This document shows positions 31,895 through 55,755 of a stretch of DNA of 64,000 nt, piece after piece (within the stretch, counting starts at the first letter, position 1; the number at the start of each line of letters is the position of its first letter). Position numbers and translations under genes: made by a program. This DNA is from Pseudobutyrivibrio sp. ACV-2 (GTDB lineage: Bacteria > Bacillota > Clostridia > Lachnospirales > Lachnospiraceae), in the NCBI RefSeq assembly GCF_900107545.1, contig NZ_FNQZ01000015.1:1-64000 (forward strand). The letters run 5' to 3'. The notes under the pieces were generated by a model that had not been told where the DNA came from, did not search any database, and worked only from the letters and a program-made list of their open reading frames with translations.

Positions 31895-33100
31895 ATGAAA
31901 CAACCAAATATTTTTTATTCTCCTGCACCAGTCGTAGAGCCAAAAGCTGGCTGCGACTGGGCAGACACAATGGTTTTGAATCCAGCGCTTGTTTTAGATG
32001 AAGATGGTAAGACAATTCACATGCTTTTTAGAGCCACTGGACCATGGCCAGAAAAAAATCTTAAAGGATTATCAGATCCATACCCAATTTTTTTAGGATA
32101 TGCAAAAAGTGAAGATTTAGGAGAAAGCTTTAACTGCGATTTCTCAAGACCAGCTTTGGCACCACGAGTTGAATACGATAGGGATGCCATGTATGTAAAT
32201 AATTATAAGGGTGAAAAGGTGCTTGATTATGCAAATGGCTGCGTTGAGGACCCACGTATTTTCACAGTAAATGGTAAAACATATCTTACAGTAGCATCTA
32301 GACTTTTCCCACCGGGACCATATTGGGAGAAGGACGCCAGAAGGGACAATCTTCCTGACTGGGTTGCAGATGATGAAACACCAGTTGGCGTATGTGCCCG
32401 ACGCAATGACACAGTTACGGTGCTTTATGAGCTCGATGTGGATGCGCTAAAGTTTGAAAATTATGATTCTGCATTTACATATGTATGTCCTCTTACAGAT
32501 GGTGCATTAAGCGATAACAGAGATGTATTTTTTTTCCCAAAAAGATTCAAAATCGATGGAAAAATGCAGCTGTTGATGTTGCACCGTCCTGACAACCCAA
32601 GCAGATTTGAAGAGGTAAGTGATGTGACAACTCCTTCTATTATGCTGGCTGCGGCTGAGTCTTTTGAGGATTTTGCTGCTGGAAAAGCAAAAAATACATT
32701 ACTTGCTACCAGCAAATTTGATTGGGAAGAGGAGCGTGTAGGAGCAAGCTTTCCACCTATCGATTTAGGAAATGGACAGTGGCTTATCTCTTATCACGGC
32801 AAGCAGCTTCCTGACTATGGATACACACAGTCCTTTATGATTCTTCAGGAGAGGGAAAATGATTTTCCAGAAATAATTCACAGAATGTCAGACCGATTAA
32901 TCTATGCAAAGCAAAAGTGGGAGCTTCCTGATAAATTCCCATGTCCTTGCATATTTACAACGGGTGCTGTTGTGGTGGATGACACTCTGATTATGGGCTA
33001 TGGGGCAGCTGATCAGAAAATCGGAATTGCAAAGACAAACCTAACTGAATTAGTTGAGTATGTAAGACGTTTTGATTCACAAGGTAACATCATTAAATAA
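31895..33100 (+). CDS. GH130-family glycoside phosphorylase or hydrolase
   Basis: A 401-residue five-bladed beta-propeller enzyme of family GH130. It has the family VEDPRI motif (residues 117-122), with the catalytic Asp119, and an opening GCDWADTMVLNPALVLDE. It is more distant from the two GH130 genes at 47319 and 48503, has large inserts (YVNNYKGEKVLDYANG, FPPGPYWEKDARRDNLPDW), and belongs to a different subgroup. Whether phosphate-binding residues are kept cannot be decided by eye, so it could be a phosphorylase or a hydrolase. No signal peptide. The ribosome binding site is weak. It lies 36 bp after a LacI gene and 18 bp before the mannanase. Confidence 0.82.
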   Translation: MKQPNIFYSPAPVVEPKAGCDWADTMVLNPALVLDEDGKTIHMLFRATGPWPEKNLKGLSDPYPIFLGYAKSEDLGESFNCDFSRPALAPRVEYDRDAMYVNNYKGEKVLDYANGCVEDPRIFTVNGKTYLTVASRLFPPGPYWEKDARRDNLPDWVADDETPVGVCARRNDTVTVLYELDVDALKFENYDSAFTYVCPLTDGALSDNRDVFFFPKRFKIDGKMQLLMLHRPDNPSRFEEVSDVTTPSIMLAAAESFEDFAAGKAKNTLLATSKFDWEEERVGASFPPIDLGNGQWLISYHGKQLPDYGYTQSFMILQERENDFPEIIHRMSDRLIYAKQKWELPDKFPCPCIFTTGAVVVDDTLIMGYGAADQKIGIAKTNLTELVEYVRRFDSQGNIIK

Positions 33101-33118: not shown

Positions 33119-36100
33119 ATGAAGAAAAGATTATTAAGTTTGGCCCTTGCAGGACTACTTTTTATAGGAAGTAATCCTGTAAAGGTAAATGCCATCTCAA
33201 AGGGTGACAGTAGTTTTAAAGATTTTATAACAACTGATGGCACTAAGCTTATGGATGGGGGAGAAGAGCTAAAATTTATCTCTTTAAACTATCCGCAGGC
33301 TACCAGCGATAATTCCTGGGAGCATGCCAATGCCATGAAGACTATCAAGGCTATGGGTGGAAATGTTACAAGAACATACACTATCCCAGTAGCTAATGGA
33401 TTTAACGGCGCAAAGGCATACGTAACAGGGGTAGATGAAAACGGCAAGCTCACCTTCAATGAGGACGCTTTAAATGAGCTGGATGATGTACTTGCCCAGG
33501 CTAACAAATACGGAGTGAGAGTTATCATCCCTCTTGTAGACCACTGGCACTGGATTGGTGGTATGGATGGCTACGTATGGTTGGCTGGAGAATCTGAAGG
33601 AAATGCGCCAAGCAACAGCGGTTTCCAGAGCTGGGCATGGAATTTCTATTCAAGTGAAACCTGTAGAGATTACTTCAAACAGATGATTGAACATTTGCTT
33701 GAAAGAGAAAACACTGTAACAGGTGTAAAGTACAAGGATGATAAGGCTATTTTATGCTGGGAGACAGCAAATGAGGCTGGTGGTAATCCTACAAACCAGA
33801 AAAACTATGATGATGTATTGTCTGATTGGAATATTGATATTACAAATTTCATCAAGTCACATGATAAGAATCATTTAGTTTTAGATGGAAGAATGTCTAC
33901 TACTGAACAGTCTAGAAGTGACGCAAATCCTGCAGATATTTTAGGCGCTCACTATTATGAAGGAAATTATGCAACCCGCTGTGCAGATGAGACAAATCTT
34001 GTGCATGGGGAGGCAAATAAGCCATTCATCCTGGGTGAGTTTGGTGGCAAGGTAGAGGCAAAGCCATGTATCGATGTATTCCAGAAGGGCGTAGAAAACG
34101 ATACTAATGGAATCATGATGTGGAGCCTTAGAGCTCACAAGGATGGCTATGGATATTATTTCCATGATGAGGATGGATACTGGGCATCGTATCACTGGCC
34201 AGGTTTTGAGGCAGGTAGCTATTACGGTGAGACAGAGATATTAAGAGCCATTTATGCATATGCTCAGATTGTAAATGGTGAAGCTGATAACTATGAAGAG
34301 GCTAAGAATATTGCAATCCCAGCTCCAGAAACAGAGGAAGCACCTCTATTATATGCAGCTGATTCTGAGAATGCTCATGACAAATCATTCCTTGATGGTT
34401 CGGTAGGTGATATCAAGTGGCGAGGTGTTGTAGGCGGCGCATGGTATGAAATCGAACGAGCTGAAGGCAAAGTAACTGAGGCAAATGCAGACAAGACAAA
34501 TTGGACACTAATTGCTGACGTAGATGACTATGTATATGATTCCGGCAGAAACTGGGAAGATAAAAAGCATGATTGTATAGCAGGATACCATGATGAGACA
34601 GCTATTGATGGACAAACATATTCATACAGACTTAGAGCCTGCAATGAATCAGGAAAGGGCTTGTGGTCAAATATTGTTACAGTAGAAAATGTGAATCATG
34701 TAGTTGTTGATGATTTGGACATGATAGCTGTATCATCCAAGGATCAAAATCCTACAGAAATCAGAAATACATACAGCTTTGCACATTCTGCAAATATCAC
34801 TCAGTCAGGTGGAACCATCACAAATAGTAGTGACGAGGAGGGCTACATTGAGTACAAATCTATCATTCCTATTAAAAATGTAGATTTGCTTGCTGTAAGT
34901 GAGGTGGCAGAGGAAAATGCGCCAAAGGTTTTTGTATCTTCAAACGGACTCACTTATGACCCAGTTGAAGTGAATCATGAAAATGATACCAAGAACTATA
35001 ATGTGACTGTAGAGGAAGATAATTATTACTACACACGCATTTATTTACCTGCAAAGGGAAGATGCAAGCTTGAATCAGTGACTCTTACCTATGCTAATGA
35101 TGGAAATCACTATTTGTCAGATGATATTACATTTGACACAAATGTGATGATTCAAGACAGAGTATTTGATGATGGAAATGCTCACTATGCTCTGAAGGAC
35201 GATACATCACTTATCTACAAGACAGGTGATGATATCAATGCCATAAGAGTGAATGCTGCTTCTGACAGTGATGTAACAGTGGAATATTCATATGATGGTA
35301 TTTCATTTACAGAAATGAGTGCCAAGGAAAGCGCAGGCAAGAATGTATTTTCAAACTTTAACCTTGGCGATTCTATCAGAGTAGTAAGGATTGGCTATAG
35401 TGATTTAGCGGATGTGAAGTCTGTAGAGATTTCTTCCGGAACAAAGTCTATCCCTGCATCAGATGCGGCTCCAGCCAACATTATTGAAGATGGAGAGTAC
35501 TATTTTGGAGATGATGAGGCTTTAAATGGTACATATGACCTTGAGATATCAGGCAATAAAGTGACTATTTCAAAGGCATTAGATGCTGGGGATTACTCAG
35601 GCTACGATAGCATCTTTGGATGGTTTAAATCAGCTGATAATTTCAAGAGTGCCAAAATCTCATTTGAAGATAATGCAGGTGCCAAGTGGATTAGTGATGC
35701 TTTTAATGTAACAGCAGACGGTGAAATGTCAAAAGCTACTATTGATTCTGAGAGTATTAATCTTGGTGCTGTGGAAAAAGTGTCATTTATATTAGAGAAC
35801 AGGGATGATATTAAGGATGCAAAGCTAAAGCTTACATCAGATAAATACACTGGAAATTACGCTGTGGCTGTAGAGCTTACAACAGAAGCTGGCGCTAAGG
35901 AGATGCTTGTTTTTGACAGTGTTTATGTAAATTCTTCTACCAAGGTAGATGATTTCGAGGGCTACAGCGGTTCTAACAGCTTGCTTAATGCTGCATACAA
36001 TAGAAACACTAATGGTGGCGCATTTGAAATGTCCCTTGATTCAGAGCATGCATACGAAGGTGGCTATGCCATGAGAATTGATTACGATTATCAGGGCAAG

Positions 36101-37855
36101 GGGTACGCCGGAGCAGCTAAAACTATGGATCTTTTAAATCTGGATGGATACGATGGCTTCTATATGTATCTATACGGAGATGGTTCTGATAATGATTTGA
36201 AGATTCAGGTGGAGACAGATGTATCTACATTTGCATACACAGGATACCTTTCTTTCGAGGGTGGAAGAGAGTGCTTCCTTCCTTTCAGTGGTTTTGCTGA
36301 GTGTGATTGGGCAGGAAGTGGACATCAGCTCGATTCATCAAACAATCTGAAATCAGTGGCCATTTACACAGACCAGACTGGTAAGGTTGATAAGGGAACC
36401 TTCTATATTGATGATTTACGAGGCTCTCATGAGGTAGAAGGTGCCGATGACCTGCTTAGCAGAAAGGAAATTGAAAAGCCTGATACAGGAGAAAATCTGG
36501 ATAATGTAGTATTCTCATGGAATTTTGGTGAGGATGGTACAGATGGCTGGAAATTCGAAGGCTTTAGTCCATGGATTGAAAATGGAAATCTCTGTGCTTG
36601 GTCACAAAACGGATACCAGGCAGTATTCAGCTATACAGTAGAGGATGTGCCAAATGGAAGATATGCTCTTATGGAGGATATCAAGGTAAAGAGCAACATG
36701 AGAAACGTTCAGGTGGAGATTTCATCTGGTGACAACAAGGTTAAATCAGACTCTATTGATACAGCAGATGTGCTTTTAGATGATGAGCTTCTTGAGGGGA
36801 GACTTGAAGTAAAGAATAATACTGTAACTATTACTTATTATCTGGATTCACCTACAGATTCTAACGGAACCACATTTATGGTGGGGGACATAAAACTTAT
36901 CTGTGTGGAGGAAGCTGAAGAAGAGGTAGATGAACCAGAAAAGGATCCAGAGGAAACTCCTGAAGAAGGTGAAAATACAAAAAATCCAGAGGAATCAGGA
37001 GAGGTAGTAGAACCTGAAAATCCTGATGATAATAATGAATCAGGTGAAAGCGAGACTATGGAGCCATCAGATTCTGAAGAGTCGGGTGAAGGTGAGACAG
37101 AAGAGCCATCAGATACTGAAGAGTCAGGCGAGGGACAAACAGATGACTCACAAGAATCAGAAGAACCAGCTGAGTCAGGAAATGTAGAAACTCCTGAGGA
37201 ATCAGAGGAAGCACACGAATCTGGTGATGAAGATATTCAAACTGGTAGTGAGGATATCAATGCAGGTGCTGATTTAGGTGGAGAAGAAGGTGGTGCTGCA
37301 AGCGAAGAGACTGCACCAAGTGCGCCAACAGAAGCAAGCACACCATCAGGCGGCTATTCAGTACCAAGTCCTTCTAATAATGTAGCTGAAGCACCTACTA
37401 CAACTATTACAGCTACTGAGACTCCATTGGCAGGTCAGGCTGTTAAAGATGTAGCTGATGCAGTAGATGATGATAAAACACAGGTAGCAGCTGATACAAA
37501 TACAGCTGCCAATGACAAGAAGGTTTTAAATAACACAAAAGAAACAAATAAAACAAACAATCATAATAAAACTAAAAATACTAATGAAGCTAATGACACA
37601 AACGCTGACGAGGAAGCTACAGAAATAACTGATGAAACTGCACCTGCAGCTGGTGAAGCCTCTGATGATGCTGAAAATACAGCAGAAGAGGAGACAACTG
37701 TAGAGGCTGAGGAGGATGCTGAAGCTACAGCAGAATCAAATGAGCAGGAAACAAATGCAGGAAATGGTAGTGTAGTTGCAATCGTATTAGGACTATTAAT
37801 TGTAGTAATATCTGTGGGGGCAGGAATAATACTATGGAGAAGAAAAAATATCTAG
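33119..37855 (+). CDS. Surface-anchored GH5-type endo-beta-mannanase with binding modules
   Basis: A 1578-residue exported protein, the likely polymer-degrading enzyme of the locus. Residues 1-25 are a signal peptide. Residues ~26-395 are a clan-A GH5-type catalytic domain with acid/base Glu219 (CWETANEAGG) and nucleophile Glu307 (FILGEFGG). An Fn3-like region follows (about 405-530), then beta-rich regions, a CIA30/CBM11-like module about 940-1100 (VDDFEGYSGSNSLLN) and a jelly-roll module about 1127-1262 (SWNFGEDGTDGWKFEGF), probably mannan-binding. Residues ~1263-1547 form a Glu/Asp/Pro/Ser linker. The end is one transmembrane segment plus RRKNI, so it is held by the membrane and not by sortase. 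Mannan specificity is inferred from the locus. Confidence 0.88.
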   Translation: MKKRLLSLALAGLLFIGSNPVKVNAISKGDSSFKDFITTDGTKLMDGGEELKFISLNYPQATSDNSWEHANAMKTIKAMGGNVTRTYTIPVANGFNGAKAYVTGVDENGKLTFNEDALNELDDVLAQANKYGVRVIIPLVDHWHWIGGMDGYVWLAGESEGNAPSNSGFQSWAWNFYSSETCRDYFKQMIEHLLERENTVTGVKYKDDKAILCWETANEAGGNPTNQKNYDDVLSDWNIDITNFIKSHDKNHLVLDGRMSTTEQSRSDANPADILGAHYYEGNYATRCADETNLVHGEANKPFILGEFGGKVEAKPCIDVFQKGVENDTNGIMMWSLRAHKDGYGYYFHDEDGYWASYHWPGFEAGSYYGETEILRAIYAYAQIVNGEADNYEEAKNIAIPAPETEEAPLLYAADSENAHDKSFLDGSVGDIKWRGVVGGAWYEIERAEGKVTEANADKTNWTLIADVDDYVYDSGRNWEDKKHDCIAGYHDETAIDGQTYSYRLRACNESGKGLWSNIVTVENVNHVVVDDLDMIAVSSKDQNPTEIRNTYSFAHSANITQSGGTITNSSDEEGYIEYKSIIPIKNVDLLAVSEVAEENAPKVFVSSNGLTYDPVEVNHENDTKNYNVTVEEDNYYYTRIYLPAKGRCKLESVTLTYANDGNHYLSDDITFDTNVMIQDRVFDDGNAHYALKDDTSLIYKTGDDINAIRVNAASDSDVTVEYSYDGISFTEMSAKESAGKNVFSNFNLGDSIRVVRIGYSDLADVKSVEISSGTKSIPASDAAPANIIEDGEYYFGDDEALNGTYDLEISGNKVTISKALDAGDYSGYDSIFGWFKSADNFKSAKISFEDNAGAKWISDAFNVTADGEMSKATIDSESINLGAVEKVSFILENRDDIKDAKLKLTSDKYTGNYAVAVELTTEAGAKEMLVFDSVYVNSSTKVDDFEGYSGSNSLLNAAYNRNTNGGAFEMSLDSEHAYEGGYAMRIDYDYQGKGYAGAAKTMDLLNLDGYDGFYMYLYGDGSDNDLKIQVETDVSTFAYTGYLSFEGGRECFLPFSGFAECDWAGSGHQLDSSNNLKSVAIYTDQTGKVDKGTFYIDDLRGSHEVEGADDLLSRKEIEKPDTGENLDNVVFSWNFGEDGTDGWKFEGFSPWIENGNLCAWSQNGYQAVFSYTVEDVPNGRYALMEDIKVKSNMRNVQVEISSGDNKVKSDSIDTADVLLDDELLEGRLEVKNNTVTITYYLDSPTDSNGTTFMVGDIKLICVEEAEEEVDEPEKDPEETPEEGENTKNPEESGEVVEPENPDDNNESGESETMEPSDSEESGEGETEEPSDTEESGEGQTDDSQESEEPAESGNVETPEESEEAHESGDEDIQTGSEDINAGADLGGEEGGAASEETAPSAPTEASTPSGGYSVPSPSNNVAEAPTTTITATETPLAGQAVKDVADAVDDDKTQVAADTNTAANDKKVLNNTKETNKTNNHNKTKNTNEANDTNADEEATEITDETAPAAGEASDDAENTAEEETTVEAEEDAEATAESNEQETNAGNGSVVAIVLGLLIVVISVGAGIILWRRKNI

Positions 37856-41500: not shown

Positions 41501-42460
41501 CTAAAACAAAAAGGAATCTGGAATAGAATCCCCTAATTGTATGTGGTGCTGGCGATACTTCAATGGAGTATCGCCAGTTTCTTTTTTGAACTGATTTATA
41601 AAGTGGGTCGTGTTTGGTATGCCCACAGCATTTCCTATTTCTACTATCGTATTTTCGGTATCTAAAAGCAGTTCTTTGGCTTTTGACATTCTAACGGTGT
41701 TTAGATATTTTAATGGGGCTATATTATAGGTATTGGAAAAATCTCTACATAGTCTGTATTTGTTAAGCCCCAGCTCTTCCTGAAGAGAATCAAGAGTGTG
41801 AGCCTCCTGATATCTGGTGTCCAGGATTTTTTTAAGTCTGGTTACATGGTTGCTGGCGTTATGAACACCGGTGATGGTGGTGTCTTGTACATTTAAAAGA
41901 CGTACAAATACATATTGAAATAACAGAGATTGTCTAAAAAGTCCCATCCTGGTTTCTTCTGTCAGTAGATAGTCTATCTTTGAAAGTGAATTGATAATAA
42001 ATGAATGCATATCGAAATCCTTGTGAAAAGAATGGATATTTTCAGGATTCTTCATCAGAGATTGCATATAGGAATCCACTGCCAGGCCAGAAACAAAATA
42101 GGTGTGTATGGTGGTGTCCTTACTGAAGGATTTAATATTATAAATAGAATCTTTGTAACAAATAAAAACCAGATGTGTTTCTCCGATATAGCTTTCTGCT
42201 TCGGTCTCTATCTGAATGCGACCTTCGCTAATATAACCGCACATATAATAATCCCCTGTCTGGATGTCGGCATCTATATTACGATCAAAATGGAGCACTC
42301 CGCCATAAGATATATAAGGCAACACATCATTTTCATAGGATTGTTGGTTTTCAAAGAAATTATTAATATCCAGGCAGGAAGGCAGACTATCATTTAAAGA
42401 TAGAGGCTTATTAAAATGAAAATGTTCTGAAATAAAATCTGATTTACTCAAGGTATTCAT
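41501..42460 (-). CDS. AraC-family transcriptional regulator
   Basis: A 319-residue AraC/XylS activator with an N-terminal cupin-like sensor domain and two C-terminal HTH units (HTLDSLQEELGLNKYRLCRDFSNTYN, then NTIVEIGNAVGIPNTTHFINQFKKETGDTPLKYRQ). Start ATG 42460 is set by AAGGAG 8-9 bases upstream; a longer TTG-type start is not needed. It is read divergently from the solute-binding protein gene, sharing a 273-bp control region, and is the likely activator of the transport and catabolic operon. It runs tail-to-tail with the LacI gene, one base apart. Confidence 0.9.
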   Translation of the reverse strand: MNTLSKSDFISEHFHFNKPLSLNDSLPSCLDINNFFENQQSYENDVLPYISYGGVLHFDRNIDADIQTGDYYMCGYISEGRIQIETEAESYIGETHLVFICYKDSIYNIKSFSKDTTIHTYFVSGLAVDSYMQSLMKNPENIHSFHKDFDMHSFIINSLSKIDYLLTEETRMGLFRQSLLFQYVFVRLLNVQDTTITGVHNASNHVTRLKKILDTRYQEAHTLDSLQEELGLNKYRLCRDFSNTYNIAPLKYLNTVRMSKAKELLLDTENTIVEIGNAVGIPNTTHFINQFKKETGDTPLKYRQHHIQLGDSIPDSFLF

Positions 42461-42693
42461 AGTACTCTCCTTAAAATTAATCAAACTAAAAGGTAAAAAT
42501 TAAGTAAATTAATCACTTGGAACTTAAATTAATCTCTAAAATTAGGTTTTTGTGTGGTTAATATTAACAAATAGAGCAAAATAAAACCATCAAATGTCAC
42601 AAAAAAGCCCTATAAATCAAAAATGAATGATTTATAGCAATAATAATAGATGACTAAAATATAAATGTCAATATAATTAAATTAAACCAATTG

Positions 42694-46137: not shown

Positions 46138-47307
46138 ATGTTTGTAGAAGAAATAAAAAAGGAATTATTAGAGAATATTATTCCCTTTTGGAAAGGGATG
46201 GAAGACAAAAGCCATGGAGGCTTTTATGGATACTTAGATTATGATCTAAAGTTAGATAAGCAAGCGGAAAAAGGATGCATTTTAAATAGTAGAATTACCT
46301 GGTTTTTTGCCAATGCTTATCTAATTACAAAGGATGAAAGCCTTCTTTTATATGCGAAGCATGGATACACTTTCATGAAGGAAAAATGCTTTGATAAGGA
46401 ATATCCAGGAGTGTTTTGGTCGGTGGATTATCAGGGAAATCCTGTGGATACCACAAAACATACCTACAATCAGGCATTTGCTATTTACGCACTTTGTGCA
46501 TATTTTGAAGCTTCAAATGATGTGGAAGCATTGGAGCTTGCCTATGAATTATTCCATGTGATCGAGGATTATTGTACAGATGATTACGGATATTTAGAGG
46601 CATTCAAGAGGGATTTTTCGCCTGAATCAAATGAAAAGCTTTCTGAAAATGGTGTCATAGCAGAAAAGACTATGAACACACTGTTACATGTACTTGAGGC
46701 GTACACCCAGCTTTACAAGGTTTCAAAAGACGATAAGGTACGTCAAAAGCTGTATCGCATTTGCGATATTATCAAAAATAAGGTTTACAACCCTAGCCTG
46801 AAAAGGCAGGAAGTATTTTTTGATAAGAAGTACAACAGTATTTTAGATTTACATTCCTATGGTCATGATATAGAGACTGCATGGCTGGTGGATAGAGCAC
46901 TTGAGGTTTTGGATGATGTTGAAGTTAGCAATTCGATTAGCCCTATCACTGAGGCACTTACAGAGCAGACTTTCAAGGTGGCTTTTGATGGTCACTCGTT
47001 TGCTAACGAATGTGAAAAGGGTGTTGTCAATAATCATCGTGTGTGGTGGGTACAGGCTGAAGCAATCGTTGGATTTATCAATGGTTGGCAAAAGAATAAA
47101 TCAGATGAGAAATACCTTTTGGCAGCAAAATCCATATGGGAATTTATAAAAACATATGTGGTAGATAAACGAGAAGGTTCAGAGTGGTACTGGGAAGTGG
47201 ATGAAAATGGAAAGCCATATGAAGGCAGACCAATCGTGGAGCCATGGAAATGTCCATATCACAACGGCCGCATGTGTTTTGAAGTAATATATAGATTAAG
47301 CGAGTAG
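46138..47307 (+). CDS. AGE-family epimerase, probable mannobiose 2-epimerase
   Basis: A 389-residue (alpha/alpha)6-barrel epimerase of the N-acylglucosamine/cellobiose 2-epimerase family. Family motifs are [13 protein letters not shown], the [12 protein letters not shown] helix, the catalytic-His region [13 protein letters not shown] and [16 protein letters not shown]. In mannan loci this enzyme turns beta-1,4-mannobiose into mannosyl-glucose, the substrate of the next gene's enzyme. The specificity is inferred from the neighbours; cellobiose epimerisation is possible too. It overlaps no gene and lies 5 bp after the permease, 11 bp before GH130. Confidence 0.9.
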
Positions 47308-47318
47308 GAGATATATCA

Positions 47319-48488
47319 ATGTTACATGAGCGCTATTTTGTAGAAAAGGAAAAGCAGGACAAGCTTCTTTCAAAAAAGAATGTAAAGTCAGATTTTTATA
47401 ATGGTATTTATGATCGCTACGTATATCCGGTATTAACCAGAGAACATATTCCTCTTACCTGGAGATACGATTTGAATCCAGATACAAATCCATATTTTAT
47501 GGAGAGACTGGGCATCAATGCAGTGATGAATTCGGGAGCCATTTATTTAAACGGAAAATATTATCTGGTTGCCCGTATTGAAGGAAATGACAGAAAGTCA
47601 TTTTTCGGAGTAGCCGAAAGCGATAACGGCATAGATGGGTTCAAATTCTGGGATTACCCAATTCTTTTAGATGATGTGTGCCCTGAGGAGACTAATGTGT
47701 ACGATATGCGTCTCACTCAGCACGAGGATGGATATATTTACGGTGTGTTCTGCTCTGAGAGCAAGGATACTTCTGTTAATGATTTATCTGCAGCTGTTGC
47801 TGCGGCAGGAATTGTCCGCACTAAGGATTTGAAGAACTGGGAGCGACTTGACAATCTTACAACACTTAGAAGCCCACAGCAGAGAAATGTAGTGCTTCAC
47901 CCTGAGTTTGTAGATGGAAAGTATGCATTTTATACACGTCCAATGGACGATTTCATCGAGACAGGAAGCGGTGGCGGAGTTGGTTTTGGTTTGTGTGAGG
48001 ATATCACACATGCTGTTATCGATGAGGAAAAGATGACCAGCCTTAGAAAATATCACACTATTACAGAGGCTAAAAATGGTGCCGGAGCTACTCCTATTAA
48101 GACAGATAAGGGCTGGATTCATATTGCTCACGGTGTTAGAAACACTGCAGCTGGACTTCGCTATGTTATATATGCATTTGCCACAGATTTAAATGATCCT
48201 TCAAAGGTTATTGCTGAGCCATCTGGTTTATTAATCGGACCTAGAGGGGAAGAGCGTGTAGGAGATGTATCAAATGTAGTATTTACAAATGGTGCAATCG
48301 TCAATGAAAACAATGAAGTATTTATTTATTACGCATCCAGCGACACAAGAATGCATGTAGCTACTACTACAATTGATAAATTAAAGGATTATGTGTTTAA
48401 CACACCATCTGATCCGGGTCGTTCAGTGGAGTGTGTTGCACAAAGATGTGAATTAATCAGAAAAAATCTTGAGTTTTTAAATAGATAA
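47319..48488 (+). CDS. GH130 4-O-beta-D-mannosyl-D-glucose phosphorylase
   Basis: A 389-residue GH130 enzyme of subfamily 1 type. It phosphorolyses mannosyl-glucose to mannose-1-phosphate and glucose. Length and the long N-terminal helix ([18 protein letters not shown]) match characterised mannosylglucose phosphorylases. The likely proton-donor region is [13 protein letters not shown] with Asp129; other family parts are [15 protein letters not shown] and [19 protein letters not shown]. It takes the product of the epimerase just upstream. Confidence 0.92.
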
Positions 48489-48502: not shown

Positions 48503-49525
48503 ATGTCAAAGTACACAATGATCAGCCCTGAGGTACCAAATGTTCCATGGCAGGACAAGCCAGCTAATTTAGTTGGTGCGCCAATCTGGAGATATGATAA
48601 AAATCCTATTATCGGACGTAATCCACTTGAGGGTGTTGCTAGAATATTCAACAGTGCAGTAATGCCATATGGCGATGAGTTTATCGGTGTGTTCAGAGGT
48701 GAGCAGACAAATGGTATTCCATACATTTATCTTGGCCATAGCAAGGATGGTATTAATTGGACTTTCGAGACTGAAAAGATTCCATTTGTGGATGAAGAAG
48801 GAAATTCTTTCATGCCAAAGTATGCTTATGACCCTCGTCTTGTAAAGGTAGAGGATGCATACTATATCATTTGGTGCCAGGATTTTTATGGAGCATCTAT
48901 TGGTATTGCAAAGACAACAGATTTCAAGACCTTTGTGAGACTTGAAAACCCATTTATCCCATTTAACAGAAATGCTGTTTTATTCCCAAGAAAGATTAAT
49001 GGCAATTATGTAATGCTTTCACGTCCATCTGACAGCGGACACACACCATTCGGTGATATTTTCCTTAGCGAAAGCCCAGACCTTGTATATTGGGGAAAGC
49101 ATAGACATGTAATGGGTAGAAATGATAAGTGGTGGCAGTCATTAAAGATTGGTGGCGGTGCAGCTCCAATCGAAACATCTGAAGGCTGGTTGCTTTTCTA
49201 TCATGGTGTTACAGGAACCTGTAATGGATATGTATATTCAATCGGTGGAGCTATTCTTGATATTGATAATCCTTCAAAGGTTAAGTATCGTTGTGAGAAT
49301 TTCCTTCTCACTCCAGAAGAGTGGTATGAAGAGCGCGGATTTGTTCCAAATGTTTGTTTCCCATGTGCAACAATACATGATTCAAAGACAGGCAAGATTG
49401 CTCTTTACTACGGAGCTGCAGATAGCTATGTAGGTCTCGCATTTACAAATCTTGATGAGATTATTGATTACATCAAGGACCACAGCGTTGTAACAGAAGA
49501 AGATACCGAAATCGGTATAAGATAG
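48503..49525 (+). CDS. GH130 beta-1,4-mannooligosaccharide phosphorylase
   Basis: A 340-residue GH130 enzyme of subfamily 2 type. It releases mannose-1-phosphate from the non-reducing end of longer mannooligosaccharides. Features are YAYDPRLVKVEDAYYIIWC with the donor Asp110, LFPRKINGNYVMLSRPSD and KIGGGAAPIETSEGWLLFYHG. A ribosome binding site GGAGG lies 7 bases upstream of the ATG, 14 bp after the GH130_1 gene. Together the two phosphorylases save ATP in mannan breakdown. Confidence 0.92.
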   Translation: MSKYTMISPEVPNVPWQDKPANLVGAPIWRYDKNPIIGRNPLEGVARIFNSAVMPYGDEFIGVFRGEQTNGIPYIYLGHSKDGINWTFETEKIPFVDEEGNSFMPKYAYDPRLVKVEDAYYIIWCQDFYGASIGIAKTTDFKTFVRLENPFIPFNRNAVLFPRKINGNYVMLSRPSDSGHTPFGDIFLSESPDLVYWGKHRHVMGRNDKWWQSLKIGGGAAPIETSEGWLLFYHGVTGTCNGYVYSIGGAILDIDNPSKVKYRCENFLLTPEEWYEERGFVPNVCFPCATIHDSKTGKIALYYGAADSYVGLAFTNLDEIIDYIKDHSVVTEEDTEIGIR

Positions 49526-49555
49526 TTGAATGATATACAAGGGAAGGTAAATGTT

Positions 49556-50611
49556 ATGTTTATTAAGTTTGATGATGAGTTCTTGGATTATAGCGGAAGG
49601 GTTGATTATGAAACTGATAAAACAATATTTATCTTCCCTTGTTCTTATGTAAGGGTGAAATTTAAAGGAAGTAGTCTGAAGGCGATAGTAGATAACAAAA
49701 ATGCCTACTGGGATAACTATCTTGGAATTATTGTCGATGGCAAACAGTCCAAGGTAAAGCTTTCGAATGATGAGGGCAAGCAGACAGTAACCCTGGTCGA
49801 GGATGAAGAGGCAAATCTCCATGAGGTGATGCTCTTTAAGAGGCAGGATAGCTGTCATCAGGTTGGATTTTATGGTTTTGAGTTGGATGATGATGGAATT
49901 CTATTGGAACCACCTGAGAAGCCTCAAGGGAAAATAGAGGTGTATGGAGATAGTGTTTCAGCAGGAGAGGTATCTGAGGCCTATGATTTTGTGGGAAAAC
50001 CTGACCCAGGTTGGCATCAGGGGGAGCTTTCAAACAGTTATTATTCCTATGCCTGGCTTACTGCCAGAAAGCTAAATGCTCAGATACATGATATTGCTCA
50101 GGGAGGAATAGCACTTATAGATGATACCGGATGGTTTAACGAACCAAATTACATAGGTATGGAGTCTGTATACGATAAAGTGCGATATAATCCCGCCATT
50201 GGAGAGTCTTCTAAATGGGATTTTAGTAAATATACACCTGATGTCGTCATAGTGGCTATAGGTCAAAACGACAGTCATCCAGATGATTATATGGCAAAGG
50301 ATTACCACTGTAGTCAGGCTAAAAACTGGAGAGAACATTATCGTAAATTCGTATTAAATTTGAAAACAATTTATCCCGATGTCCATATAGTTTTGTGCAC
50401 AACTATTTTGGAGCATCATAAAAACTGGGATATTTCTATAGATGAAGTCTGTAATGAGATTGCAGACGACAAGATACATCATTTTCTTTTTGAAAATAAC
50501 GGCTCAGGTACACCGGGACATATCAGAAAGCAGGAGGCTGAAAAAATGTCAGATCAGCTTGCGGCATATATTGAAAGCCTTGGTATACCAAGCTTAAGAA
50601 GAGGCAAATAA
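49556..50611 (+). CDS. CE2-type acetyl esterase
   Basis: A 351-residue two-domain esterase: an N-terminal beta-jelly-roll (about residues 1-115) followed by an SGNH domain with nucleophile Ser133 (YGDSVSAGE), an IGQND block (VVIVAIGQNDSHP) and a late His322 (GTPGHIRKQ). This is the CE2 layout, with a Ser-His pair. By analogy with the Roseburia mannan locus it removes acetyl groups from imported acetyl-mannooligosaccharides. It has no signal peptide. ATG at 49556 is chosen because GGAAGG lies 8 bases upstream; an in-frame TTG at 49526 has none. Confidence 0.85.
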   Translation: MFIKFDDEFLDYSGRVDYETDKTIFIFPCSYVRVKFKGSSLKAIVDNKNAYWDNYLGIIVDGKQSKVKLSNDEGKQTVTLVEDEEANLHEVMLFKRQDSCHQVGFYGFELDDDGILLEPPEKPQGKIEVYGDSVSAGEVSEAYDFVGKPDPGWHQGELSNSYYSYAWLTARKLNAQIHDIAQGGIALIDDTGWFNEPNYIGMESVYDKVRYNPAIGESSKWDFSKYTPDVVIVAIGQNDSHPDDYMAKDYHCSQAKNWREHYRKFVLNLKTIYPDVHIVLCTTILEHHKNWDISIDEVCNEIADDKIHHFLFENNGSGTPGHIRKQEAEKMSDQLAAYIESLGIPSLRRGK

Positions 50612-50613
50612 AG

Positions 50614-51729
50614 ATGAAAGAATACATTAATTACAAAGAAAGTATATGTAATAAAGGCAATCTTTTCAGATTAAAGCGTGTGATGAAGAAAGCTAACGCA
50701 AAGGAAGAGATTACTATTGGTTTTATTGGTGGTTCTATCACACAGGGCTCATTAGCTTCAGCAGATGATAAATGCTATGCATGGAAGGTTTTTGAGTGGT
50801 GGAAGGAGATTTTTAAAGATACCAGCTTCAAATATGTAAATGCAGGAATTGGAGGGACAACCTCTCATTTTGGGGCAGCAAGAGTTGAGGCCGATTTGCT
50901 TAATGCTAAGCCTGATTTAGTATTTGTGGAGTTTTCAGTAAATGATGATAGTAATGAGCATTTTCTAGAAACCTACGAAGGCCTTGTGAGACATATTTAT
51001 AGAAGCGGGAGTGCTCCGGCTGTAGTGCTTATAAGCAATGTTTTTTATGATACAGGAGCAAATGCTCAGCTTCAGCATTCAAAGGTGGCCCGTTTCTATG
51101 AACTTCCACTTATCAGTATGCAAAGTGCCATTTATCCTGCTGTCAGAGATGGGAAAATCGCAGTAAGAGATATTACTCCTGATGATTTACATCCTAATGA
51201 TATGGGCCATGAGCTTGTTGCATCGGTGGTTAGATTTTTCCTGGATAGAACATTACAGGAGGTTCTTATAGGAGAGCAGCCAGCTTTTGAGAACGATAGT
51301 CTGCCGGCTCCTATAACAGAAAATACCTACGAAAATGCAATCAGAGTGGACAATAGAACATATGAGGCCAGCTGTCAGGGCTTTATTAAAGATGAAAGTG
51401 AACAACAGGATATTACAGATTGCTTTAAAAATGGATGGCTTCTCAGCGAAGGTGAGGGAAGGATAGCATTTGAAGTGGAATGTACTGGTGCAGCTATTCA
51501 ATACCGCAAATACGTATCGAAGAATGCACCTGTAGCTGAAGTTTTTATTGATGGCAAGCCTGTTACAGAACTTGATGCAAATTTCGATGAAAGCTGGGGT
51601 GACAAGCTGGAGCTTGAGACACTGTTTGAGCATTGTGAATACAGTAATTACAAGATAGAAGTAGCTATAAAAGACGGTAATAAAGTGAAGAATCCATTTA
51701 ATTTGGTTTCGGTAATTTTGGCTAGATAG
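50614..51729 (+). CDS. CE17-type acetyl-mannan esterase
   Basis: A 371-residue SGNH esterase with a C-terminal beta-sandwich. Catalytic parts are GGSITQGS (Ser41), the VEFSVNDD block and DDLHPNDMGH (Asp190, His193). The C-terminal ~150 residues (from about 225, EVECTGAAIQYRKYV, KVKNPFNLVSVILA) form a CBM35-like module, the layout of family CE17, which works with CE2 to fully deacetylate mannooligosaccharides. Cytoplasmic. Two bases separate it from the CE2 gene, so they are translated together. Confidence 0.85.
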   Translation: MKEYINYKESICNKGNLFRLKRVMKKANAKEEITIGFIGGSITQGSLASADDKCYAWKVFEWWKEIFKDTSFKYVNAGIGGTTSHFGAARVEADLLNAKPDLVFVEFSVNDDSNEHFLETYEGLVRHIYRSGSAPAVVLISNVFYDTGANAQLQHSKVARFYELPLISMQSAIYPAVRDGKIAVRDITPDDLHPNDMGHELVASVVRFFLDRTLQEVLIGEQPAFENDSLPAPITENTYENAIRVDNRTYEASCQGFIKDESEQQDITDCFKNGWLLSEGEGRIAFEVECTGAAIQYRKYVSKNAPVAEVFIDGKPVTELDANFDESWGDKLELETLFEHCEYSNYKIEVAIKDGNKVKNPFNLVSVILAR

Positions 51730-51740
51730 GAAGTGAAAGT

Positions 51741-54104
51741 ATGTTTAAAAAGGATTTTGTGTGGGGTGTTGCCAGCAGTGCATACCAGGTAGAAGGTACA
51801 GACCCTAACGATGGCAGAGGCGAAATGATTTGGGATGATTTCCTGGCTGAGGGAAAGGGCTATGCCAACCAGACTGCAGAAATTTCATGTGATCATATGC
51901 ATAGATATAAAGATGACTATGCTCTTATGAAAAATATGGGAATAAAGGCATATCGATTTTCTCTTAACTGGTCAAGAATCTTGCCAGATGGGACTGGCCG
52001 GGTAAATCAAAAAGCCATTGATATGTATAGAGATATGATACTTACCATGAAAGAGGATGGAATTGAGCCTTATATCACACTGTTTCATTGGGAATTTCCA
52101 AAAGCTTTGTATCACAAAGGTGGCTGGCTGAATTTAGAGGTGGTTGAATGGTTTGGAGAATATGCAAAGGTTGTTGCTGAAAATTTTTCAGATATCTGTA
52201 CAAACTTCATCACCTTTAACGAACCACAGTGTGTAGTTCTTTTAGGACATATGACAGGTGAACATGCCCCTGGAATCAAAGTATCTATTAGGGATTCATT
52301 CCTTATCGCACATAATCTTCTCAAAGCACATGGTGCTGGTGTTATCAATCTTAGAAAATACGCAAAGCAGGAAATCAAAATCGGATTTGCTCCTACAGGT
52401 GGGGTGGCATATCCATATACCGACTCAAAAGAAGATATTGAGGCTGCAAAAAAAGTATACTTTGGTTTTGAAAATCCTATAGAAAGATGGGCTTGGAATG
52501 TATCCTGGTTCTCAGATCCTGTTTTCCTTGGGCACTATCCTGAGGAGGGACTTAAAAAATATGCAAAATATCTTCCTGAAATCACTGAAGAGGACATGGA
52601 GCTTATCCACCAGAAGATAGATTTTATGGGGCAGAACATCTACAACGGCTATTACATTAGATGTGGTGAGGATGGAAAGCCTGAATATGTGGAGCGTGAG
52701 GTGGGAAGCCCTGTAACCGCCGTAAATTGGCCAATTACACCAAAGGCATTCTATTACGGAATCAAGTTTTTAACTGAAAGATATAACTATCCTTTGTACA
52801 TTACTGAAAATGGAATGGCATGCCACGATAACATTTCTATCGATGGAAGAGTTCATGACTACGACAGAATTACATTTTTGGATGAATATATCAGTGAAAT
52901 GCAGCGTGCCATCGATGAAGGAGCCAATGTAAAGGGATATTTCTGTTGGACATTCTTAGATAATCTTGAATGGGATAAGGGCTATAAAGAGCGCTTTGGA
53001 CTTGTGTATGTGGATTATCACAATCAGCGTAGAATAGTAAAAGACTCTGGATATTGGTACAAGAAGCTTATAGAAACAAACGGAATGAGTCTCTCCGTAA
53101 ATACGATAAATAAGGAAATCCTGTTTTTAGAGCCAGTGTGCACTCACAATATTTGGGGCGGTACAAAGCTTCATGATGATTTTGGCTACAAGGAAGAGGG
53201 ATCCGACGTTGGAGAGTGCTGGGGAATTTCAGCTCATCCTAACGGAGACGGGTCAAACAAATATGGCGCCTTTGAAGGCAAAAAGCTCTCTGAGCTTTGG
53301 GAAAAGCATCCTGAAGTGTTTGGAAATCTTGATTTAGACAGATTCCCGCTTTTGGTAAAGCTTATTGATGCTAGAGATGACCTGAGTATTCAGGTGCACC
53401 CAGATGATAGCTATGCCAAGGTCCATGAGAATGGAAGCTTTGGAAAAACTGAATGCTGGTATGTACTTGACTGCCCAGAGGATGCAAGTCTTGTAATAGG
53501 CCACAATGCTTCTTCAAAGGAAGAATTGGTTCAGATGATAGAAGAGGGCAAGTGGAGTGATTTGATCAGAGAAATCCCTGTGAAAAAGGGTGATTTTATC
53601 CAGATTGATCCAGGCACAGTACATGCTATAAAGGGTGGACTTCTCATATTAGAAACCCAGCAGAATAGCGATATTACATATCGTGTTTACGATTATGACA
53701 GAATGTCAAATGGCAAGCCTAGAGAGCTTCACATTAAACAAAGTGAGGACGTTATTACAGTGCCTGCCAAGGATCCTGAAAAATCAGTGATTCATACAGG
53801 AAACTCTATTAAAAATGAGCTTGTTCCGCTGTATAGCTGTGATTTCTACAGTGTATTTCATCTTAATCTGGATGGGGATATCTCTTTTAGACAGAAATAC
53901 CCATTTTTGAATATGACGGTCACAGATGGCAGCGGAATTATTAACGGCCAGCCAATTAAAAAGGGCGATAATTTGATAATCCCTAATGGCTTTGGCAAAG
54001 TGGAGATTACAGGTAAATTACAGGCAGTACTTTCTACTGCAGATAAAATAAAGGAAAAGGGTGCGGAAGATGAGTTATATTTCGATTTACGAAGAGTGGT
54101 GTAA
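51741..54104 (+). CDS. Fusion of GH1 beta-glycosidase and class I mannose-6-phosphate isomerase
   Basis: A single 787-residue reading frame with two complete enzymes. Residues 1 to ~447 are a GH1 beta-glycosidase (FVWGVASSAYQVEGT, acid/base Glu161 in FITFNEPQ, nucleophile Glu356 in YITENGMA, C-terminal GYKERFGLVYVDY). After a short joint, residues ~455-787 are a class I phosphomannose isomerase: EPVCTHNIWGGTKL, zinc ligands Gln551 and His553 (IQVHPDD), Glu571 (KTECWYVL) and His628 (GTVHAIKGG). It fits the pathway: GH1 could cleave glucose-containing fragments, and the isomerase turns Man-6-P into Fru-6-P. There is no stop or shift at the joint and no good ribosome binding site for a separate isomerase. 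Its end overlaps the mutase gene. Confidence 0.9.
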   Translation: MFKKDFVWGVASSAYQVEGTDPNDGRGEMIWDDFLAEGKGYANQTAEISCDHMHRYKDDYALMKNMGIKAYRFSLNWSRILPDGTGRVNQKAIDMYRDMILTMKEDGIEPYITLFHWEFPKALYHKGGWLNLEVVEWFGEYAKVVAENFSDICTNFITFNEPQCVVLLGHMTGEHAPGIKVSIRDSFLIAHNLLKAHGAGVINLRKYAKQEIKIGFAPTGGVAYPYTDSKEDIEAAKKVYFGFENPIERWAWNVSWFSDPVFLGHYPEEGLKKYAKYLPEITEEDMELIHQKIDFMGQNIYNGYYIRCGEDGKPEYVEREVGSPVTAVNWPITPKAFYYGIKFLTERYNYPLYITENGMACHDNISIDGRVHDYDRITFLDEYISEMQRAIDEGANVKGYFCWTFLDNLEWDKGYKERFGLVYVDYHNQRRIVKDSGYWYKKLIETNGMSLSVNTINKEILFLEPVCTHNIWGGTKLHDDFGYKEEGSDVGECWGISAHPNGDGSNKYGAFEGKKLSELWEKHPEVFGNLDLDRFPLLVKLIDARDDLSIQVHPDDSYAKVHENGSFGKTECWYVLDCPEDASLVIGHNASSKEELVQMIEEGKWSDLIREIPVKKGDFIQIDPGTVHAIKGGLLILETQQNSDITYRVYDYDRMSNGKPRELHIKQSEDVITVPAKDPEKSVIHTGNSIKNELVPLYSCDFYSVFHLNLDGDISFRQKYPFLNMTVTDGSGIINGQPIKKGDNLIIPNGFGKVEITGKLQAVLSTADKIKEKGAEDELYFDLRRVV

Positions 54105-55755
54105 GAAAGCTACAGAGGATGCTGATGTAGCAGGCGAATTAAAGGCAATCGAAGGTGATGAGGCAAAAATAGAGGATGCTTTCTATAGAAATCTCGCCTT
54201 TGGTACAGGCGGTCTTAGAGGAGTAATCGGAGCCGGAACAAACAGAATGAATATTTATACTGTGGCTAAGGCTTCACAGGGACTTGCAAATTATGTATGC
54301 GGCAATTTTGCTGAAGATGCAAGAAGAATAGCAGTAAGCTACGATTCCAGAATAAAGGCTGATTTATTTGCAAAAACAGCCGCTTCAGTGTTTGCTGCAA
54401 ATGGAATCAAGGTATTCATATATCCTGAGTTGATGCCTACACCATGTCTATCTTATGCAGTTAGAGCACTTGAATGTGCTGCAGGAATTATGGTGACAGC
54501 ATCTCATAATCCCTCTAAATATAATGGATACAAAGTATACGGACCTGACGGATGCCAGATTACAACAGAGGCAGCTGCAGAAATCTTAGCCGAGATTGAA
54601 AAGGTAGATGCATTTGAGGATGTAAAAAAGGTTGATTTTGAAGCTGCACTTGAAAATGGTGCCGTTGAATATATCAAGGAAAACGTATATACGGACTTTA
54701 CTAATGAAGTGTTAGGTCAAAGCCTTGTTGGTGATGAAGAAATTGATAAGAATGTTGCTATTGTATATTCGCCTTTAAATGGTACTGGCTTAAAGCCTGT
54801 TACAAGAGCATTAAAGGAGGCTGGTTACACTAACATTACATTAGTTGAGGAGCAGAAAAATCCTGATGGCAATTTCCCAACATGCCCATATCCAAATCCT
54901 GAAATAAAAGAGGCTATGGCACTTGGAGTTGAATATGCTAAAAAGAATAATGCAGATTTACTTTTAGCTACTGACCCTGACTGCGACAGAGTAGGTATCG
55001 CAGTTAAAAATGCAGAGGGAGAGTATGTGCTTTTATCTGGAAATCAGACAGGTTGCCTGCTTCTTGATTACGTATGCTCAATGCGTGTAAAAAATGGAAC
55101 AATGCCAGCTGATGCAGAGGTGGTAAAGACTATCGTTACTACTGATTTAGGTGAGCAGATTGCCACAAACTATGGCGTTAAAACAATAAATGTACTTACT
55201 GGATTCAAATTTATAGGCGAAGAAATCGGCCGTCTTGAAAAGCAGGGTAAGGATGCTTCCTATATATTTGGCTTTGAGGAAAGCTACGGATATCTGAGCG
55301 GTTCATATGTAAGAGACAAGGATGCTGTAGATGGTGCATTCCTTATCTGTGAAATGTTTGCTTATTATAAAACCCGTGGTATAAGCCTGCTTGATAAGCT
55401 TGATGAGCTTTATGCAAAATATGGCTATTGCCTAAATACACTTCACTCATACGAGTTTGAAGGCTCTGCTGGTCTTGAGAAAATGCAAGGTATTATGGCT
55501 GCAATGAGAAATGAAATGCCAGAAATCGGTGGAATCAAGGTGGTTAAAGTAAATGACTATCTTAAGGGGATTGATGGATTGCCAAAGTCTGATGTAATCA
55601 AGTTCTACCTTGAGGGAAATGGTTCTGTAGTTGTGCGTCCATCTGGTACAGAGCCTAAGATGAAGGTGTATGTATCTATCAGTGCAGAAAATGAAGCAGC
55701 TGCAAATGCAACAGAAAAAGAAGTGGTAGCTTTTATGGAGCAGCTTCTTAACTAA
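54070..55755 (+). CDS. Phosphohexomutase (phosphoglucomutase/phosphomannomutase)
   Basis: A 561-residue alpha-D-phosphohexomutase of the PGM2 type. The active-site Ser145 lies in TASHNPSKYNGYKVYG, the metal loop is TDPDCDRVGIA, the sugar-binding loop GFEESYGYLSG, and the phosphate loop RPSGTEPKMKVY is near the end. In this operon it converts mannose-1-phosphate from GH130 to mannose-6-phosphate for the fused isomerase. ATG at 54070 lies inside the end of that gene (35-bp overlap), so the two proteins are made in coupled translation. It closes the mannan operon. Confidence 0.92.
   Translation: MSYISIYEEWCKKATEDADVAGELKAIEGDEAKIEDAFYRNLAFGTGGLRGVIGAGTNRMNIYTVAKASQGLANYVCGNFAEDARRIAVSYDSRIKADLFAKTAASVFAANGIKVFIYPELMPTPCLSYAVRALECAAGIMVTASHNPSKYNGYKVYGPDGCQITTEAAAEILAEIEKVDAFEDVKKVDFEAALENGAVEYIKENVYTDFTNEVLGQSLVGDEEIDKNVAIVYSPLNGTGLKPVTRALKEAGYTNITLVEEQKNPDGNFPTCPYPNPEIKEAMALGVEYAKKNNADLLLATDPDCDRVGIAVKNAEGEYVLLSGNQTGCLLLDYVCSMRVKNGTMPADAEVVKTIVTTDLGEQIATNYGVKTINVLTGFKFIGEEIGRLEKQGKDASYIFGFEESYGYLSGSYVRDKDAVDGAFLICEMFAYYKTRGISLLDKLDELYAKYGYCLNTLHSYEFEGSAGLEKMQGIMAAMRNEMPEIGGIKVVKVNDYLKGIDGLPKSDVIKFYLEGNGSVVVRPSGTEPKMKVYVSISAENEAAANATEKEVVAFMEQLLN

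Follow-up and report, generated by a model that had tools for sequence, protein, structure and literature searches.

A GH1-mannose-6-phosphate isomerase fusion in a beta-mannan locus of Pseudobutyrivibrio sp. ACV-2 and its relatives

The fused gene and the locus around it

The window, a stretch of 64,000 nucleotides from Pseudobutyrivibrio sp. ACV-2, holds a series of forward-strand genes for the use of beta-mannan. A GH36 alpha-galactosidase, a LacI regulator, a solute-binding protein, and two ABC permeases are encoded between 38226 and 46132 (assigned with Pfam, the second permease by eye), and an AraC-type gene (41501 to 42484, Pfam) lies on the opposite strand. They are followed by a cellobiose/mannobiose 2-epimerase-like gene (Mep; 46138 to 47307), which scored over the cut-off of PF07221 and below that of NF041848 (EpiA), and by two GH130 phosphorylase genes at 47319 to 48488 and 48503 to 49525 (PF04041, 75.2 and 246.8 bits), which we take to be of the mannosylglucose and mannooligosaccharide types, respectively. 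Two acetylesterase genes come next, one of family CE2 (49526 to 50611; CE2_N, 93.7 bits) and one of the GDSL type that is presumably CE17-like (50614 to 51729; Lipase_GDSL_2, 65.6 bits). The fusion gene is flanked by this GDSL esterase gene and by a forward-strand phosphoglucomutase/phosphomannomutase gene (54070 to 55755; Pfam PGM_PMM I to IV). If the mutase starts at its ATG, it overlaps the 3′ end of the fusion by 35 bases; the open reading frame list also has an upstream GTG at 54061. An ABC importer, an epimerase, two GH130 genes, two esterases, GH36, LacI, and a phosphomutase are thus all in the window, as they are in the R. intestinalis RiGH1 mannan locus (PMC6385246), and the fusion sits in a beta-mannan utilization locus. 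Upstream of this locus are a third GH130 gene (31895 to 33100, 401 amino acids) and a gene for a 1,578-residue protein (33119 to 37855) with, by eye, a signal peptide and a C-terminal membrane anchor. That protein looks like a GH5 mannanase by eye but had no glycosidase match in Pfam or NCBIfam.

The fused open reading frame runs on the forward strand from an ATG at 51741 to a TAA at 54104 and encodes 787 amino acids without an internal stop. The original prediction of two complete enzymes in this frame was borne out by both the domain models and the catalytic and metal residues. Residues 1 to 448 (51741 to 53084) form a complete GH1 domain, a beta-glucosidase-type TIM barrel. Glyco_hydro_1 (PF00232) matched residues 2 to 448 with 465.5 bits against a cut-off of 22.6 and covered profile positions 5 to 452 of 453, and the beta-glucosidase model TIGR03356 was passed by a narrow margin (482.1 versus 478.5 bits). 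Glu161 in the motif TFNEP (52221 to 52223), located by alignment to the Ks5A7 beta-glucosidase, and Glu356 in ITENG (52806 to 52808) are, on our understanding of GH1 enzymes, the acid/base and the nucleophile. The junction alignment placed a linker of about 10 residues at 449 to 458 (53085 to 53114), in agreement with the predicted position of the joint.

The remaining residues, 459 to 787 with the stop codon (53115 to 54104), form a class I mannose-6-phosphate isomerase (PMI) domain. TIGR00218 (manA) scored 209.2 bits against a cut-off of 116.2, PMI_typeI_cat matched residues 462 to 561 (61.3 bits), and MPI_cupin_dom, the C-terminal cupin barrel of PMI, matched residues 699 to 765 (42.1 bits). 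Gln551, His553, and Glu571 (53391 to 53453) and His628 (53622 to 53624) occupy the positions of what we take to be the Gln-His-Glu-His metal ligands of class I PMIs. In an AlphaFold model (19 fused sequences; pTM, 0.77), both domains were well folded and the linker was less certain. The best 50 matches in a fold search with the fusion model were GH1 chains only, and the PMI half was assigned from its sequence, with 1qwr (presumably Bacillus subtilis ManA, a stand-alone enzyme) as its nearest solved chain (E value, 3.7e-90). The solved chain nearest to the GH1 half was Ks5A7 (9l0q), which is a stand-alone enzyme, whereas its counterpart in the window is fused to a PMI.

Occurrence and conservation of the fusion

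A sequencing error at the joint, the danger that the original prediction had raised against itself, is ruled out because the same one-frame protein recurs in other genomes. Of 29 genomes from the genus, 5 (counting that of the window) have residues 1 to 787 in a single open frame, and the other four proteins are 87 to 95% identical to the window protein. In the proposed search of other Lachnospiraceae, 397 genomes of the family were sampled and 17 had the one-frame fusion, again with the window's own counted, each match running from residue 1 or 2 to at least residue 765. A copy split across two contigs in genome G034, which would be the eighteenth family genome, was left out of this count. 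A genome scan returned 43 loci, and in 20 of these, including two partial ones, a single frame encodes both domains; among the loci are those from the isolate P. xylanivorans DSM 14809 (L035) and Pseudobutyrivibrio sp. MD2005 (L036); the genus, family, and genome-scan sets overlap. A sample of 391 genomes across the class gave 12 with matches at an E value of 1e-150 or lower: 4 belonged to the window's family and had the fusion throughout, and the remaining 8 had GH1 only. The GH1-PMI fusion is real and occurs in related bacteria as well.

For residue comparisons, we assembled 35 distinct fused proteins, including the window's and two partial ones, with identical proteins and a truncated copy of the window protein left out. 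Glu161 was conserved in all 34 proteins that could be scored there, and Glu356, Gln551, His553, Glu571, and His628 were each conserved in 35 of 35; the GH1 catalytic and subsite residues as a group were near-invariant. The spacing from GH1 Tyr440 to PMI Trp472 was exactly 31 residues in 30 of the 35, and the joints of L090, L092, and L093 were 1 to 3 residues shorter. An internal start that would yield a separate PMI was also considered and is not supported: Met449 is found in just 3 of the 35 proteins, and therefore there is no conserved internal start. Over all computable pairs, dN/dS was 0.025 to 0.063 for the GH1 half and 0.011 to 0.099 for the PMI half. Within the genus, the values were 0.025 to 0.032 and 0.011 to 0.088, respectively, and these are rough, as dS exceeded 1 in most pairs and three comparisons gave no computable dS. 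By these alignments, both halves are under purifying selection.

The surroundings of the fusion were similarly examined in loci with at least 2 kb of upstream sequence. Mep or GH130 genes were nearby in 29 of 33, and the nearest detected upstream gene was a CE17-like esterase in 24 of 33, within 300 bases in 17. Against a role tied to mannan, no other mannan genes were detected around the fusion at L040 and L162, and the mutase alone was detected at L041. Adjacency to the mutase is likewise local: among 28 fusion loci whose downstream sequence was long enough, the mutase follows directly in only 5 (L035 to L039); at L036, its frame overlaps the fusion further.

Published relatives and the proposed role

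Proteins with this architecture are already in print. R. intestinalis L1-82 RiGH1 joins an N-terminal GH1 domain to a C-terminal PMI in one chain of 768 amino acids, as in the window (PMC6385246), and R. hominis RhGH1-M6P, from a mannan-oligosaccharide locus, is likewise a predicted bifunctional GH1 and PMI protein (PMC9784577). The earlier statement that no enzyme with this pairing had been described is contradicted by the accessible text of these two reports. F. prausnitzii FpGH1, which we liken to the fusion by its description as a “GH1 isomerase,” belongs to the same type of locus and was assigned the PMI role (PMC8262883), and Butyrivibrio hungatei bhn_I1967 is tabulated as “Mannose-6-phosphate isomerase” of family GH1 (PMC6344614). 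In Lachnospiraceae, the fusion is an ordinary part of mannan metabolism that has been described before.

The R. intestinalis protein (ROSINTL182_05469/70) was predicted to be bifunctional and was divided into RiGH1_D1 (amino acids 1 to 246) and RiGH1_D2 (amino acids 247 to 768), and its locus genes were upregulated on beta-mannan (PMC6385246). RiGH1_D2 interconverted mannose 6-phosphate and fructose 6-phosphate. RiGH1_D1 was inactive on all of the substrates tried, including G4, M4, M5, mannose 6-phosphate, glucose 6-phosphate, and fructose 6-phosphate, and the authors called its significance unclear (PMC6385246). The published limit at 246/247, however, differs from that in the window protein, at about 448/459. 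Because the window's GH1 domain extends to about residue 448 with its nucleophile at Glu356, and because the fusions are nearly collinear, cutting at 246 should interrupt the barrel. In the numbering of the window protein, RiGH1_D1 would thus be about half of a GH1 domain without the nucleophile, and RiGH1_D2 would carry the second half of the barrel along with the PMI. Since D1 by homology lacks the nucleophile, its negative result probably does not test GH1 activity. The published inactivity of the glucosidase half therefore rests on a fragment that homology places as cut mid-barrel, and one construct can correct it. No assay of an intact GH1 domain was found in the accessible text of the R. 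intestinalis, R. hominis, and F. prausnitzii papers.

These considerations bear on whether the GH1 half is a noncatalytic scaffold or stabilizer and the PMI alone is active. The inactive RiGH1_D1 fragment (PMC6385246) is what this explanation would expect, and genus g307, described below, has a lineage without the GH1 nucleophile. However, besides the probable truncation of the D1 fragment, the near-invariance of the GH1 catalytic and subsite residues in the 35 fused proteins and a within-genus GH1 dN/dS of about 0.03 stand against it, and we regard a scaffold as very improbable.

We then considered what the GH1 half might hydrolyze. The 6-phospho-beta-glycosidase models were far below their cut-offs (310.3 versus 610 bits and 270.7 versus 561.2 bits), and that assignment was rejected. 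Arg72 and Asn160, which we take to be glucosidase-type residues, are conserved together in 75 of 79 GH1 rows; two of the other rows have Asp160, and two have Ser160 with His72. The Asn that precedes the acid/base Glu is Asp in fusions L088 and L089 and Ser in the g307 pair L053 and L054, possibly a shift in specificity in these proteins. A different reading takes the GH1 half for a beta-mannosidase or another exo-glycosidase whose product, mannose, would enter the PMI branch, putting both halves on one carbon route. The common locus is compatible with such a route, as would be three relatives in which GH1 is encoded next to a fusion of PMI with a ROK kinase. The best equivalog, though, is a beta-glucosidase, and this, with Arg72 and Asn160, makes a shared mannose route unlikely.

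On the PMI side, the fusion supplies the only class I PMI in the window genome; a ManC-type PMI gave a sub-cut-off match only, and a PGI/PMI-type PMI gave no match. The fusion is therefore the only PMI detected in that genome. A second class I PMI over the cut-off was absent from 18 of 22 fusion genomes, several of the 22 being incomplete, and was present in G393, G104, G085, and G127. Twelve genomes that lack the GH1-PMI fusion were examined for comparison: a PMI of another form passed the cut-off in 11 of them, and none did in G806. From its R. intestinalis homologue, the window's PMI half is predicted to isomerize mannose 6-phosphate and fructose 6-phosphate.

We consider it likely that the fusion is a cytoplasmic bifunctional enzyme of the beta-mannan locus, a relative of RiGH1 that combines a GH1 exo-beta-glucosidase with a class I PMI and secures their co-production without channelling. 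This reading rests on the domain scores, the conserved residues, dN/dS, the Mep and GH130 neighbours, the low 6-phospho model scores, the sole detected PMI here and in most fusion genomes, the activity of RiGH1_D2, the induction of its locus on mannan, and the AlphaFold model. Glucomanno-oligosaccharides, once imported and deacetylated, would be trimmed in the cytoplasm, where the GH1 half would most likely remove their terminal glucose as an exo-beta-glucosidase. Phosphorolysis by GH130 would give mannose 1-phosphate, the phosphomannomutase encoded next door would convert it to mannose 6-phosphate, and the PMI half would convert that to fructose 6-phosphate; these three steps are carried over from R. 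intestinalis, where they have been shown. The fusion would also serve as the cell's only detected PMI, and its two active sites would work independently on different molecules. As the original prediction held for this fusion in a mannan locus, the GH1 and PMI steps are not consecutive, and therefore co-production or neutral fixation is likelier than channelling. A fixed ratio of the two enzymes or their localization at one complex, both put forward in the original prediction, would be speculative. The fusion would have been born from neighbouring operon genes. Besides the inactive RiGH1_D1 fragment and the literature examined, in which no GH1 activity was found reported for this family, two observations count against this role for the GH1 half. 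The window genome has GH3 matches in 16 stretches, and therefore the GH1 half may be redundant; and at L179, in the same genus, a PMI is present and GH1 is absent across the 19 kb examined, and therefore GH1 is dispensable there.

History of the fusion and its descendants in genus g307

Trees were built for each half. The GH1 tree had 72 rows after 6 were dropped (a duplicate, fragments, long branches, and a near-copy), and it placed all 35 fused rows in one clade of 46 (support, 97/88) together with 11 unfused rows; rows outside this clade were unfused throughout. The PMI tree, of 69 rows after 4 were dropped, had stand-alone PMIs interspersed among fused ones, well-supported branches forced at least 10 changes of state, and a single clade of all fused PMI domains was rejected (AU test, P = 0.00028). 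Genome G127 carries PMIs in both forms, fused and stand-alone, which are sisters on this tree (100/100). Multiple losses, multiple fusions, or domain exchange could each explain the scattering of fused PMIs. The GH1 tree and the constant joint would be matched by a single ancient fusion that was lost repeatedly, and some fusions or exchanges, such as those at L090, L092, and L093, may be independent. Residues that resemble the GH1 tail were found upstream of 5 of 38 stand-alone PMIs at P values of 0.004 to 0.015, which are uncorrected for 38 tests and come from control shuffles that tried fewer registers; as fission scars they are suggestive only. By eye, stand-alone GH1s L052 and L055 have linker-like residues at their ends.

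So labile a state raises the question of whether the fusion arose neutrally, as an accident of adjacency in the operon, and has persisted only because separation is harmless or costly. The frequent changes on the PMI tree and the existence of comparable gene fusions (GH1-CE2, esterase-PMI, and GH130-CE2) are what such an accident would predict. On the other hand, the junction length is constant in 30 of 35 fused proteins, and a PMI-derived barrel has been retained after loss of PMI catalysis. We give this explanation nearly an even chance.

The retained barrel is seen in Lachnospiraceae genus g307, where a descendant of the fusion is present in 4 of 4 genomes (L053, L054, L165, L187, L188, and L189), metagenome-assembled ones included. 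In G334 and G808, the GH1 glutamates are kept and the PMI is cut to about 130 residues, without the metal-ligand region. In G807 and G809, NEP has become SDP, with Asp at the acid/base position; ITENG has become ITCGG or ISCKG, so that the nucleophile is gone; and the region around Glu410 is deleted with the frame still open. Between these pairs, the PMI remnant is 68 to 69% identical versus 44 to 45% for the GH1 part (Fisher's exact test, P = 5e-6 to 1e-6). Within the pairs, the full remnant differs in the same direction and not significantly (97 versus 93%, P = 0.1; 82 versus 74%, P = 0.11). When only residues 456 to 580 were taken, the G334-type pair L053 and L054 had dN/dS values of 0.0085 versus 0.046. 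The order is reversed in 33 intact fusions, where the C-terminal barrel is the least conserved part (0.50 versus 0.64 for GH1). A model of L053 (pTM, 0.79) has a run of beta-strands at residues 509 to 571 that fits a small barrel. No other mannan genes were detected in the 14 to 19 kb around each of the four g307 genes; in G809, genes for a class A penicillin-binding protein and an S1-domain protein are among those nearby.

From these comparisons, we tentatively propose, at somewhat less than even chance, that the PMI-derived barrel serves its partner in a way beyond isomerization and that the g307 protein, predicted to be inactive in both halves in two of the four genomes, is a selected pseudoenzyme that could act as a sensor, scaffold, or partner-binding module. 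A search of an open-access library turned up nothing on a GH1-PMI pseudoenzyme. If the proposal is true, a bifunctional metabolic enzyme gave rise to a selected pseudoenzyme. The relatives form a natural series from bifunctional to single-function to predicted dead in both halves yet conserved, and they offer a clear opportunity to study the passage from metabolic enzyme to pseudoenzyme. Elsewhere on the tree, near the window's genus, the protein at L050:7923-9587 retains GH1 and the C-terminal barrel without the PMI catalytic core between them, a deletion that by its position on the tree is independent of g307; its genome (G803) has another PMI.

Further fusions of these domains were noted among the sampled genomes. 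GH1 is joined to CE2 in G315 (L110/L150) and to GH5 in G197 (L117), GH130 is joined to CE2 in G292 (L159), and an esterase is joined to a PMI in G340 (L109/L149), with no other mannan genes in its 20 kb. The PMI-ROK kinase fusions directly beside a GH1 gene are at L094, L103, and L105 (G229, G395, and G164), and their PMI lineage is unlike the window's. A ManC-PMI fusion occurs in G022; at L018:205-2526, in a genome of the window's genus other than the window's own, a protein of 774 residues joins a ManC-type nucleotidyltransferase to a class I PMI.
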